Source: Anaerovibrio slackiae (GTDB lineage Bacteria; Bacillota; Negativicutes; Selenomonadales; Selenomonadaceae). From it: 64,000 nucleotides of DNA. Location: NCBI RefSeq assembly GCF_009695585.1, contig NZ_VUNR01000007.1:1-64000 (forward strand), read 5' to 3'. The notes under the pieces were generated by a model. That model searched no databases. It saw only the letters and a program-made list of their open reading frames with translations, and was not told the DNA's origin. This document shows positions 4,120-53,862 of this stretch, in pieces; position 1 is the stretch's first letter; every line of letters starts with the position of its first letter. A program made the translations under genes and the position numbers.

Positions 4120-4282
4120 GCTTCAAAGCATAAAAATACCGTAGGAACTACGGAAATTAACGCCCACGGAGAGTGTGTAAGTCCTTTTGCCAAGGCAGAA
4201 GGCTGTTCTCGTAGAAGTGGGAATCTCCCTCCTCAAACGCCTAGGCGTTAGGAGGGAGTAATTCAATTATTGATACGTCGGC
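4120..4282 (+). ncRNA. putative TnpB guide RNA (omegaRNA): scaffold plus guide
   Basis: The 147 bp between the tnpB stop and the element end are conserved to one base in the copy at 1-125, although non-coding, and end in a bulged hairpin (4225-4258). This is where omegaRNA scaffolds lie in IS605-type TnpB loci. The guide would be about 4267-4282. The 5' end of the RNA may reach back into tnpB. This is inferred by family analogy. Confidence 0.55.
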
Positions 4283-11815: not shown

Positions 11816-11844
11816 TTGACATTTTGCGGGCTGTATAATAAAAT
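11816..11844 (+). promoter_or_regulatory. promoter of the rplJ-rplL operon
   Basis: TTGACA (11816-11821), 17-bp spacer and TAAAAT (11839-11844) place a start site just ahead of the L10 leader, so rplJL has its own promoter in addition to read-through from rplA. Confidence 0.6.
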
Positions 11845-11849
11845 AGTCT

Positions 11850-11990
11850 ATGGCTGTAGACAGCAGGTAGGGGCGCAAGGCATGTGCTTTGCAGCACCGT
11901 TAATGGAAACGCCTGCCGAGGCCGGATGGTTCAAGCATGAAATACTGCGGCCTCCGGTAAATCAGCCGGAGGCCGTTTTTGCTCGTATAA
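11850..11990 (+). ncRNA. ribosomal protein L10 leader RNA
   Basis: The region between rplA and rplJ has the layout of the Firmicutes L10 leader: a stem with the GGGGCGCAAGGC...GCAGCACC segment, the CGCCTGCCGAGGCC segment, and a final hairpin (11948-11957 with 11966-11975, core GGCCTCCGG) followed by TTTTT. In this family, L10(L12)4 binds the kink-turn part of the leader and favours the terminator, giving feedback control of rplJL. The call rests on position and structure. Confidence 0.8.
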
Positions 11991-25163: not shown

Positions 25164-25859
25164 ATGGCAGGGAAGTTATTTGGTATTGGTGTGGGGCCTG
25201 GTGACCCGGAGCTTTTGACAGTAAAGGCCATCAATGCAATCAAGCAGCTGGATGTGATTATTGCACCTAAGACAGAGAAAAAGGATGGCAGTGTGGCGCT
25301 GAACATTGCCAGCCAGTATATCAAGCCGGAAACGGAAATCGTATATCAGGTTTTTCCTATGACGGTAGGCTTTGCGGAGGATGATACCGCCTGGCAGAGC
25401 AACAAGCAGGAAATCCTGGAGCTGTTGCAGGCTGGGAAAAATGTGGGCTTCCTGACATTGGGAGATCCCATGTTTTATAGTACCTACATTTATGTGTTCC
25501 GGCTTTTGCAGCATGAGGCTGTGGAGATAGAGACGATTCCGGGGATTCCGGCTTTTTGTGCCATCGGCAGTGCTACCAACACCCCGATTGTGGAGGGAGA
25601 CAGCATTCTGAGCATTATTCCTGCCAACATGCCGGAAGACAGGGTGCGGTCTGCCTTGAAGACCTGCGATAATGCCGTGCTGATGAAGGTGTACAAGAAC
25701 TCCGATGCCGTGATTGATATGCTCGCGGAGGAAGGGTTGGCAAAGCAGGCAGTGCTGGCAAGCCGCTGCGGCCTTGACGATGAGGTGATTATCCGGGATA
25801 TTTCCGGGGAGAAGGGCAGGAAGCTGAATTATCTGTCCACTATTCTCACAAGAAGGTAA
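25164..25859 (+). CDS. cobI: precorrin-2 / cobalt-factor II C20-methyltransferase
   Basis: 231 aa SAM-dependent tetrapyrrole methylase. The N-terminal GIGVGPGDPELLTVKA is the family glycine loop, with GDPMFYSTYIYVF and IPGIPAFCAIGSATN in the centre. It methylates C20 in B12 biosynthesis. No other cob/cbi gene adjoins, so it is separated from the pathway cluster. ATG 25164 is chosen for its GAAGG site and because the family begins there; ATG 25152 is an alternative. Confidence 0.9.
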   Translation: MAGKLFGIGVGPGDPELLTVKAINAIKQLDVIIAPKTEKKDGSVALNIASQYIKPETEIVYQVFPMTVGFAEDDTAWQSNKQEILELLQAGKNVGFLTLGDPMFYSTYIYVFRLLQHEAVEIETIPGIPAFCAIGSATNTPIVEGDSILSIIPANMPEDRVRSALKTCDNAVLMKVYKNSDAVIDMLAEEGLAKQAVLASRCGLDDEVIIRDISGEKGRKLNYLSTILTRR

Positions 25860-25984
25860 AGATATTTTTCCTTTGCTACGATATTATTAACGTAGCAAGG
25901 ATTTTAGTTGGTTCAATGGTGCTGGCTAATAAGCTCGAAAAGTTTTCAATGGATTGAAGGAAGCAAGTTGAAAGGAGCTTTTTT

Positions 25985-26401
25985 ATGACTAGCAAGGTTA
26001 ATGGAGCCGGTCTTGGCATAGGCATCTGGACAGGCGCAAAGGCGCGGAATACGGAGCATGAGGAGACCTGTTCCAATTTTTCTGTGCTTTTGGACAAGAT
26101 GAAAAAGGGGCAGAGTCCCAGCCTGAATTCTGATGACGGGGGAGACCCGGAGAAGACCGTGACGGTGACGAGAATTTTGTCTGATGGTTCTACGCTGATT
26201 ACTGTCATGCGGGAGGACAAAATAGTGTCACAGACCAAGACTCATGCCGTGCGGCAGGAGGACAGCCCGAAGCTTTTGAATACTATCTCCCAGGTGGGGG
26301 CAGGGTTGACCATTGCTACGCCGCAGGAGGGTGAGGAGGCCAAGGGCGGCGGTGCCGTTGATGCTGGGCATTTTTATGGCACAGGGGCTATGAATTTTTA
26401 A
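25985..26401 (+). CDS. hypothetical protein, 138 aa
   Basis: Not recognised. The ribosome site AAAGGAG is good. The sequence is hydrophilic, without signal or membrane segment. The centre has a compact beta-type unit, VTVTRILSDGSTLITVMREDK, flanked by Gly/Asp-rich, probably disordered ends. The pattern of alternating V/T/I with SDGS suggests a small beta-sheet domain. The stop codon TAA directly touches the start of a dispersed repeat at 26402. Confidence 0.7.
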   Translation: MTSKVNGAGLGIGIWTGAKARNTEHEETCSNFSVLLDKMKKGQSPSLNSDDGGDPEKTVTVTRILSDGSTLITVMREDKIVSQTKTHAVRQEDSPKLLNTISQVGAGLTIATPQEGEEAKGGGAVDAGHFYGTGAMNF

Positions 26402-26793
26402 ATTTCAGTTTGTCGTAGTGCTTGATCGTTACTTCGTGCATATACTGATGACGTAGTTTGATATTTCGTGGATTCTGTTCAGGCATTATAAAGGGACAGG
26501 TAGCGGCAGTACCCATAGAAAACTCGCTCTCGCTCTTAGCACAGCCTCGCGCTTCTAAGCTCCTGCATCGCTTACGCTCGCACTTGCTAAGAAGCGAGGC
26601 TGCACTCAAGGTTTTCTTTGGGTACATGCCGCACCTGTCCTTCTTTTTGTCTGAACAGATATGCACATAATAATCCAACTGCATTCAATTAGTATGTAAC
26701 TGTAGCAACTAATCTGACTTTACGAAAAAGCTGAAAAGGGGGAGCTGGGAACTGACGAAGCCTGTTACTGCCAACCGTTGTATAAACTGAATT
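26402..26793. repeat. dispersed palindromic repeat (MITE-like), copy R1
   Basis: About 392 bp, similar to R2 (34005) and R3 (53470). It opens with ATTTCAGTTTGTCGTAGTGC and ends with an imperfect inverted copy of the first bases (AAACTGAATT). Inside is a long hairpin bounded by CTGTTCAG and CTGAACAG, then a second conserved part with a G run. It encodes no credible protein. It begins directly after the stop codon of the upstream gene. Confidence 0.8.
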
Positions 26794-26888
26794 TTGCGTA
26801 AAAATTGACACTACCCAGGAACTGCAGTGGAAGTTTTTAGGAAACTGCTATATAATTGCGTTAGAAAATATATGGGGAGGCAGATAGA

Positions 26889-27611
26889 ATGTACAACAAA
26901 TTTATCCTGGATATGCACACGCATACACTGGCAAGCGGCCATGCCTACGGCACCATCAGGGAGATGGCGCAGGCAGCTGCGGAAAAGGGCTTGGAGCTGC
27001 TGGGCATCAGCGAGCATGCACCAGGCATTCCCGGCACTGTGGACCCGTTTTATTACTGTAACTTATCGGTGGTTCCTCGCAGCCTCTATGGGGTGGAAGT
27101 GCTTTTTGGCAGCGAGGTGAATGTGCTGGCAGGTGGGCATCTGTCCCTGGACGATGAATGGCTGGACAAGCTGGATTATGCCATTGCCGGGATTCATGCT
27201 ACCTGCTATGAGGATGCTGGCAGGGAAGCCAATACCGATAATCTCATCGCCTGCATGCGCCATCCGAAAATCAAGTTTGTTTCACATCCTGATGATGACC
27301 ATACACCGCTGGATTATGAGCGTCTGGTTCCGGCTGCCAAGGAAAATGGCGTGGCTCTTGAGGTAAATAACAGCTCTTTTTTGAAGCGTGAGGGGTTCCG
27401 GCTGAATTATCGTGAGAACTATCGCAGGATGCTGGCACTGTGCAAGCAGCATCACGCCCCGATTATCGTGAATTCTGATGCTCATGACCCTAGTGCTGTT
27501 GGTGGCTTTGATGAGGCAAGGAAATTTTTGCAGGAGCAGGATTTTCCAGAGGAATTGATTTTGAACGTAGCTGCTGACAGGCTGAAAAGATTTATAAGCT
27601 GGCAGGCGTAA
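26889..27611 (+). CDS. PHP-domain phosphatase/hydrolase (YcdX-like)
   Basis: 240 aa. The PHP metal ligands are visible: DMHTHTLASGHA near the N-terminus, GISEHAPG, SEVNVL, the HATCYED region, FVSHPDDD and NSDAHDPS at the C-terminus. Proteins of this form bind three metal ions and hydrolyse phosphoesters; the physiological substrate is generally unknown. The ATG follows GGGGAGG. It stands alone after repeat R1. Confidence 0.85.
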   Translation: MYNKFILDMHTHTLASGHAYGTIREMAQAAAEKGLELLGISEHAPGIPGTVDPFYYCNLSVVPRSLYGVEVLFGSEVNVLAGGHLSLDDEWLDKLDYAIAGIHATCYEDAGREANTDNLIACMRHPKIKFVSHPDDDHTPLDYERLVPAAKENGVALEVNNSSFLKREGFRLNYRENYRRMLALCKQHHAPIIVNSDAHDPSAVGGFDEARKFLQEQDFPEELILNVAADRLKRFISWQA

Positions 27612-32870: not shown

Positions 32871-34020
32871 GGATAGGGAGAAGGAGCTGAGATGGCAGCA
32901 GTGGGCTGCCAAGGCATTGTTCTTCGTGGGGGGCTTTGGCTGTGCCAGCTGGGCTCCCATGGTGCCTATGCTGAAGGAACGGCTGGCACTGACGGAGGAT
33001 GTACTGGGCATGCTGCTTTTGTGCGTGGGCATTGGCTCCTTGATGACGATGCCCTTCTCCGGCGGAGCTGCCGGGAAATGGGGCTGCCGCAAGGTTCTGG
33101 TGACGGCAGGTGTCTTTTATGGCATGGTGCTGGTGCTGCTCAGCATGGTGCAGTCCTTATACATGCTGGTACCGCTGATTTTGCTGCTGGGTGCCCTGAT
33201 GGGCTCCATTGATGTGGTGGTTAATGTGCTTGCCGTAATGGTGGAGAAGAAGTCCGGCGTGCGGCTTATGTCCGGCATGCATGCTTTTTGGAGCATAGGG
33301 GGCTTTGCAGGGGCAGGTATTTTCAGTGTCTGGCTGAATGCAGGGCTCAATTATTTTCAGGCGGCTGTGATTGCCTGGGGGATTATCCTGGTGCTGCTGG
33401 CTGTATTCAGGCCACATCTGATGTCTGAGGGCGGCGAAAAGCGGGAAGGCTCCCTGCTGGCAGTGCCTAGGGGAATTGTGGTATTCATCGGCATGGTGGC
33501 ATTTGTGTCCTTCCTGGTGGAGGGAGCCGTCATGGATTGGAGCGGCGTGTTCCTGACCAGTGTGAAGCAGTTTGATATGAGCATGGCAGGTGTGGGCTTT
33601 ACGGTCTTTTCGGCGGCTATGCTGATTATGCGGCTGGCAGGGGACTGGACCGTCAACAGGCTGGGGGCGCCGGTGGTGACTATCGGCGGCGGGCTTTTGG
33701 CTTGTGCAGGGTTCGTGCTGCTGATTTGGGCGCCTGCTGCCTGGCTTTTGTATGCCGGGTTCTTTATTATCGGTATCGGCAGTGCCAATATAGTGCCGGT
33801 GTTTTATTCGCTGATGGGCAGGCAGAAGGTCATGCCGCTTAATCAGGCAGTGTCTGCCGCCAGCACTATGGGGTATCTGGGGATTCTCATGGGGCCTGCC
33901 CTCATCGGGTTTGTGGCTGATAGTACAAATCTGTATGTGTCCTTTGGGCTGCTGGGAGCGCTGGCGTTCAGCCAGGCTGTTATTGCCAAATATGTAATGA
34001 GAAGTTTCAGTTTGTCGTAG
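32848..34020 (+). CDS. major facilitator superfamily transporter
   Basis: 390 aa with about 12 membrane segments. The N-terminal FVGGFGCASWAPMVPMLKERL and the loop GGAAGKWGCRKVLVTAG (motif A-like) are MFS-like, resembling the YbjJ branch of uncharacterised exporters. It overlaps the upstream CBS gene, so the two are co-transcribed. The final residues RSFSLS and the stop codon are encoded by the start of repeat R2: the repeat has replaced or trimmed the natural 3' end of the gene. The substrate is unknown. Confidence 0.85.
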   Translation: MMVKKKTEDREKELRWQQWAAKALFFVGGFGCASWAPMVPMLKERLALTEDVLGMLLLCVGIGSLMTMPFSGGAAGKWGCRKVLVTAGVFYGMVLVLLSMVQSLYMLVPLILLLGALMGSIDVVVNVLAVMVEKKSGVRLMSGMHAFWSIGGFAGAGIFSVWLNAGLNYFQAAVIAWGIILVLLAVFRPHLMSEGGEKREGSLLAVPRGIVVFIGMVAFVSFLVEGAVMDWSGVFLTSVKQFDMSMAGVGFTVFSAAMLIMRLAGDWTVNRLGAPVVTIGGGLLACAGFVLLIWAPAAWLLYAGFFIIGIGSANIVPVFYSLMGRQKVMPLNQAVSAASTMGYLGILMGPALIGFVADSTNLYVSFGLLGALAFSQAVIAKYVMRSFSLS

Positions 34021-34888
34021 TGCTGGATCGTTACTTCGTGCATATACTGACTGATGTAATTTGATACTTCGTGGACTCTGTTCAGACATTGGAAAGGGAC
34101 AGGTAGCGGCAGTACCCATAGAAAACTCGCTCTCGCTCTTAGCACAGCCTCGCGCTTCTAAGCTCCTGCGTCGCTTACGCTCGCACTCGCTAAGAAGCGA
34201 GGCTGCACTCAAGGTTTTCTTTGGGTACATGCCGCACCTGTCCCTCTTTGTGTCTGAACAGATACAACAGAATAATACAACTTCCACAAATTAGTATGAA
34301 GCTTTAGTAACTAATCCTACTTTACGAGCAAGCCTGAAAGGGGGGGAGCTGGGAGGCTGACGAAACATGCTATTGCCAACCGCCGTATAACATATAGTGC
34401 CCCGACCTCCCTTTTTCAGGCTTGTTCGTAATGCATCATCATGCTGCTACGGCAAAATATAAAGGCTTGCTGAGAAGTGAGTGGGGAGCTGTCGCAGGCT
34501 TGTAACTGTTGGCAGATAATGCGATGGGCGGTTGACTTTATAAGCAGAGTTGTGAAAATTTTGTGTCAGACCTCTTAAAGAGTATCAGGGCATGTACCAT
34601 TCGCATGGCACTGAGACGCGCCTCGGTGCTTAGCAATTCGCGAGCCGTAAGGCGAAGCGAGAGCTTAGCATCCGCTAGGCGTGGATAGTAGCGCGAGCGT
34701 GCCTGCGATGGTACTGCCTTGAGGCTCTATAAAAAGGTCTGACCGTAAGTAGGTTTATACACAACAATGTAAAAAATGACCGCCCATTGGGATATATGCT
34801 GATATTTTTCAGACAGCTCCCCTGCACTAATCAATACACCTTACATATCTCGCCGAAGTAACGATCAAGCACTACGACAAACTGAAAT
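34005..34888. repeat. dispersed palindromic repeat, double inverted copy R2 (R2a + R2b)
   Basis: 884 bp bounded by 34-bp inverted ends with one mismatch (TTTCAGTTTGTCGTAGTGCT... inward from both sides). R2a (34005 to about 34400, plus) matches R1 and R3 in all parts. R2b (34888 back to about 34440, minus) shares the end and a similar large hairpin of different sequence (about 34565-34745, outer arms TCAGACC/GGTCTGA). The centre is a third inverted repeat around a segment near 34380 (arms with CAAGCCTGAAA). It looks like two units joined tail to tail. No gene lies inside. Confidence 0.75.
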
Positions 34889-53469: not shown

Positions 53470-53862
53470 ATTTCAGTTTGTCGTGGTGCTTGTTTGTAAC
53501 TACGAGCATATACTGAAAGAAGTAGTTTGGGATTTAGTGGACTCTGTTCAGACATTATAAAGGGACAGGTAGCGGCAGTACCCATAGAAAACTCGCTCTC
53601 GCTCTTAGCACAGCCTCGCGCTTCTAAGCTCCTGCATCGCTTACGCTCGCACTCGCTAAGAAGCGAGGCTGCACTCAAGGTTTTCTTTGGGTACATGCCA
53701 CACCTGTCCCTCTTTTGGTCTGAACAGATACAACAAAATAATACAACGATATTCAGTTAGTATGGGGCTGTAGCAGCTAATCCTGCTTTACGAGCAAGCC
53801 TGAAAAAGGGGGCGGAAAGGCTGGCGAAGTTTGATACTGCCAGCCGCTGTACAAACTGAAAT
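53470..53862. repeat. dispersed palindromic repeat (MITE-like), copy R3
   Basis: 393 bp with perfect 12-bp inverted ends (ATTTCAGTTTGT at 53470 and its complement ending at 53862). The inner hairpin spans 53544-53727: outer arms CTGTTCAGAC/GTCTGAACAG, then GGGACAGGT/ACCTGTCCC, GTACCCAT/TGGGTAC and inner arms with AGCCTCGC/GCGAGGCT. The rest carries ATTAGT/AACTAAT-like bases and a G run. It starts 4 bp after the stop of the MBL gene. Confidence 0.82.

Follow-up and report, generated by a model that had tools for sequence, protein, structure and literature searches.

Relationship to described repeat families

Bacterial MITEs, as presented in the available parts of the accounts of MITEAba12 (PMC6382973) and of the Coxiella MITEs (PMC5896051), are short, non-coding, multi-copy sequences with inverted ends, mostly intergenic and transposase-less, and in these respects resemble the family of R1, a repeat of Anaerovibrio slackiae. 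Measured against the same parts of those accounts, the R1 family differs in having neither a target duplication that could be found nor a known parent IS, in being strongly stop-adjacent, and in embedding a covarying hairpin that also exists independently (PMC6382973, PMC5896051). Its copies are short, non-coding and dispersed, with terminal inverted repeats of ~34 bp in long forms and ~9 bp in short forms.

REP/BIME elements with their RAYT transposases, to the extent covered by the available parts of two reports (PMC2817692, PMC3733652), are likewise palindromic extragenic repeats that lie behind genes in either orientation and occur genus-wide. By those parts, however, REPs measure 20–40 bp, whereas the core of the R1 family is ~105 nt, its bare copies are ~130–150 nt and the R1 hairpin is 186 nt, and no Y1 (RAYT) gene is linked to the R1 family (PMC2817692, PMC3733652). 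Membership of the REP/RAYT group was rejected on this difference in length, and because Y1 was not found in some hairpin-bearing genomes and is not adjacent elsewhere.

Integron attC sites are imperfect hairpins with conserved unpaired bases, placed directly 3′ of stop codons, in a system with an IntI integrase and cassette arrays. The R1 hairpin shares the imperfect pairing, the conserved unpaired bases and the position 3′ of stops, but the family is dispersed behind ordinary chromosomal genes, has no cassette array, and carries transposon-like flanking ends.

R1 probably represents one copy of a mobile element that is non-autonomous, MITE-like and restricted to a small clade of one Selenomonadaceae genus, with a captured REP-like hairpin. 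The earlier note had proposed a non-autonomous transposon, a structured module, or both; as descriptions both apply, the one by dispersal on both strands, presence or absence in relatives, inverted ends and lack of a transposase, the other by the covarying hairpin. The family is apparently undescribed. No Rfam family reached the gathering score for any of the three members in the window, the element had zero matches in phages, plasmids and viral contigs, and the literature search gave no account of repeats of this kind in Selenomonas or Veillonellaceae. That no known family has such a start, as first supposed, thus holds against Rfam, phages, plasmids and the literature, the only comparisons made.

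The R1 locus and its window

The window is the whole 64-kb stretch of DNA that was analysed (64,000 nucleotides). R1 lies directly after an upstream TAA, as reported in the earlier note, with a single base (A26402) between them, so that TTTCAG begins at 26403; the unit indeed recurs at two further window loci, 34005 and 53470/53471. From the end of R1 (~26792) to the next ORF (26889) there are 96 bases. The features are as follows:

25985–26401, + strand: upstream ORF (138 aa), its TAA at 26399–26401 abutting R1
26403–26792, + strand: R1, short form (390 bp), with left end, hairpin, tail and right end
26403–26436, + strand: left end (TIR) of R1, TTTCAGTTTGTCGTAGTGCTTGATCGTTACTTCG
26474–26659, no strand assigned: long hairpin of R1, TCTGTTCAG ... 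CTGAACAGA, which folds with z about −8.3 on both strands
26515–26618, + strand: conserved hairpin core of R1 (covariance model hit, 88.5 bits)
26524–26535, + strand: conserved one-sided bulge of R1, TCGCTCTCGCTC (family consensus ACGCTC[TG]CGCTC)
26689–26744, + strand: tail of R1, common to the other two window copies
26775–26792, − strand: short-form right end of R1, TTCAGTTTATACAACGGT read inward
34005–34887, + strand: long form of 883 bp; both its ends are of the left type and inverted to each other, and it has two hairpins
34601–34709, − strand: the other hairpin of the long form, which is divergent (67.7 bits)
53471–53861, + strand: third window copy (short form), 5 nt past the TAA of its upstream ORF

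The long form has the copy at 34005 as its left half, and its right end (34854–34887) is an inverted left end. The site of this long form is also filled in the relative G006, and the insertion site of the third copy is identical there. Elsewhere in the window, positions 1–127 and 4142–4268 form a 127-bp direct repeat (99% identical) with no relation to the R1 element, and a Ribosomal protein L10 leader (RF00557) at 11836–11990 scores barely over the gathering threshold.

Copy number and forms of the element

The host genome (3.01 Mb in 66 contigs) matches R1 over at least 336 bases at 37 places, on both strands, and the left-end pattern TTTCAGTTTGTCGTAGTG at 88 places, ~86 after removal of chance-like hits (reversed-pattern controls gave 2 and 0); these counts are lower bounds, because many contigs of these draft assemblies terminate inside a copy. 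The element is abundant in three of the 16 genus genomes (G000, G006 and G014) and present in few copies in G002; in the remaining 12, its ends are absent or match at chance level.

Short copies (386–394 bp) combine the left end with a dissimilar right end, TTCAGTTTATACA[AG]CGGT read inward. The weak inverted ends described in the earlier note are real in these copies (TTTCAGTTT...AAACTGAA, only ~9 bp). Long copies (~800–1200 bp) have two hairpins and two inverted left-type ends that agree over ~34 bp. A minimal 131-bp form is present in G002 (L134 861–991, G002:C75:5360–5490), with ends as in the rest of the family; its loop sequence recurs on the right side of the long form at 34005–34887 and in the flank of C4:87034, which suggests nested insertion.

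Composites of 1.6–2.1 kb hold cargo between inverted ends. Three loci (L079, C24:6761–8470; L090, C32:18799–19912; L396, C6:79033–80647) have a ~900 bp cargo segment between element copies; in two of them it contains a small hydrophobic ORF that resembles a type I toxin, and the third lacks the ORF portion of the segment. Another composite with two inverted arms (L077, C16:35001–37122) encodes an HTH_26 regulator, an OB-fold (tRNA_anti-like) lipoprotein-like ORF and a zinc-ribbon-like membrane ORF.

The hairpin

Folding yields a hairpin of ~186 nt (26474–26659), close to the ~180 nt of the earlier note, and the whole unit folds at −148.5 kcal/mol (z = −8.4; none of 100 shuffles as good). A covariance model was built from the R1 core (26515–26618) and 15 other sequences, some from the sister genus g10. 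At E <= 1e-4 with strict filters it finds the hairpin in 16 of 16 genus genomes and both g10 genomes; 171 further genomes of the family gave no hit. Other species carry the bare hairpin (~130–150 bp), lacking TTTCAG ends and frequently downstream of a stop codon, and bare hairpins are retained at the same gene ends across several species (L280/L282, L284/L286/L301). The hairpin is probably older than the element. In G024, of the sister genus, bare hairpins (L324–L341) are often tagged by a TTACATTAAGG-like sequence just past one arm, and at L010, L074 and L088 an additional double hairpin of ~64 nt sits at the hairpin tip.

Among 104 distinct copies, 94% of cells are paired, 24 of 28 pairs vary on both sides, and covariation is 0.566 (vs. 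0.18 for shuffled and <0.1 for slid controls); the alignment was fitted to the model and is therefore biased toward structure, although the slid controls are nonetheless far off. G-U pairs occupy only 25 of 2851 cells. In RNA families, G-U pairs are usually far commoner. Because they are nearly absent here amid strong covariation, the pattern favours a DNA hairpin, or palindrome correction, rather than RNA. The hairpin has, besides a 2-nt bulge, an unpaired bulge ACGCTC[TG]CGCTC conserved in both genera (the ACGCTCTCGCTC bulge). Its orientation with respect to the gene varies, and L299 and L300 show both at a single locus.

This pairing pattern bears on a rather unlikely alternative, by which R1 is mobile but its hairpin is functionless, the covariation having arisen as a side effect of palindrome correction through template switching inside the inverted repeat. 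Such correction would yield near-perfect Watson–Crick pairing with few G-U pairs; arm-to-arm correction does not explain, however, why the sequence of an unpaired bulge is kept across two genera.

Placement behind stop codons

When every ORF of at least 100 codons is counted as a gene, 18 of 87 element ends lie exactly one base past a stop codon, against null rates, from one 64-kb window, of 0.2% for all intergenic sites and 2.5% for TAAA sites; 36 of the 87 lie <=12 nt from a stop, the two ends of one copy being non-independent observations. Of the 43 element ends that lie up to 60 nt downstream of a stop, 36 are in the 12 nt nearest to it (comparable sites, ~10–32%). Copies sit behind TAA, TGA and TAG, and where both ends are delimited, one end is <=12 nt from a stop in 24 of 35 copies and both ends are in 5 of 35. 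The relation to stop codons on which the earlier note had staked its reading is therefore strong. Sequence preference was rejected as its sole cause, as TAAA sites are flush in 2.5% of cases vs. 21% observed; selection against insertions elsewhere could add to it.

Comparison with relatives reveals sites that differ in the presence of the element, and its element-free relatives retain the same stop codon. At C65:44308 the gene end is the same but element-free in G002 and G006, and G000 has a native-looking, terminator-like hairpin just downstream of the element. Three further sites lack the element in G006: C2:79497; C6:75870, which is filled in G014; and C34:129614, which is empty in G014 too. 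At C14:9744 and C66:7397 the element occupies the place of the terminator region of G006.

Position right behind stop codons, replacement of the terminator region at the last two sites, structural constraint on the hairpin and the retention of bare hairpins at the same gene ends would all accord with a functional 3′-UTR module (an mRNA stabiliser, terminator or processing site) retained for its benefit to the preceding genes. This explanation is nevertheless quite unlikely: the hairpin occurs in both orientations relative to the gene, orthologous genes of relatives do without the element, and there is no terminator-like site (GC-rich stem-loop plus T run) in 25800–27300. A terminator function was rejected on the absence of a T run from that interval, and a purely RNA role is disfavoured because G-U pairs are nearly absent.

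Flanks and possible recombination between copies

The outer flanks of the element read AAA|TTTCAG and CTGAAA|TTT. Comparison of left and right flanks at 28 delimited copies gave no direct repeat that would mark a target-site duplication, the flanks being partly shuffled by recombination. AAATTT was rejected as a duplicated target, as the right flank does not change in step with non-A left flanks (AAG, AGG and AGC). In G014 or G006, the two flanks of several copies are split between contigs, suggesting that copies have recombined with one another, and some apparent insertions may be products of such recombination. Copies also appear to mark sites of gene-order reshuffling between these species. 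Several insertions are common to G000 and G006 or G014, so that recent activity is not demonstrated.

Proposed mobilisation of the element

No transposase was found between the end pairs examined in the element's own genome, up to 2.2 kb, which enclose only small cargo genes; this draft genome is broken at copies, and relatives were searched in part for an autonomous parent. We infer transposition from the distribution, because the analysis turned up neither an enzyme nor a target-site duplication nor an entirely clean empty site.

For the MITE-like element, an enzyme supplied in trans would recognise the TTTCAG...CTGAAA ends and insert copies at sites resembling AAA|TTT, downstream of a stop codon and within or next to the terminator region, with no duplication of the target. 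Insertion there would do little harm, and placement just behind stops would be either tolerated or targeted. An older REP-like hairpin, acting in folded DNA form as a cruciform or a single-stranded substrate, would have been captured between these ends, and recombination between copies would have given rise to the long palindromic forms, the cargo-bearing composites and the shuffled flanks. Within this mechanism we infer the enzyme, the chemistry of insertion and the action of the hairpin as DNA. It is a more speculative proposal, and doubtful at present, that the family represents a new class of mobile element, with machinery that actively targets the start of the 3′ UTR (from stop codon to terminator) by way of a structure-recognised DNA hairpin kept genus-wide by a putative enzyme. 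A mobile element that settled immediately after stop codons would spread with very little risk, and the family offers dozens of natural insertions, as well as several empty sites in related species, with which the targeting rule, the candidate enzyme and what the conserved bulge does are directly testable.

As a further alternative, a host enzyme or integrase would move the hairpin as a site of structure-specific recombination or replication, resembling attC or REP, and the element would spread via folded single-stranded DNA rather than by its TTTCAG ends. This would fit the Watson–Crick-only covariation of the hairpin, its two bulges and its position 3′ of genes, but is quite unlikely, given that Y1 (PF01797) was not found in several nearly complete genomes with the hairpin and that the Y1 genes found have no hairpin beside them, that attC-type cross-over sites were not recognised, and that G000-clade copies have ordinary long inverted ends.

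Candidate enzymes were considered individually. The Y1 transposase (PF01797) was rejected as a partner because it was not found in those nearly complete hairpin-bearing genomes, and no Y1 gene found has a hairpin beside it. An Rpn-family (Transposase_31) gene adjoins one copy and was also rejected, as most neighbours of copies look like unrelated ordinary genes. Derivation from IS200/IS605 was rejected because no element end adjoins a Y1 gene except at a remnant, L304, where an IS605-type element lies inside or beside it. At L304 (~1296, G006:C130), this IS605-type element stands directly behind a 15-bp left-end remnant, and the gene end corresponds to the G000 site C56:63728, which has a full copy.
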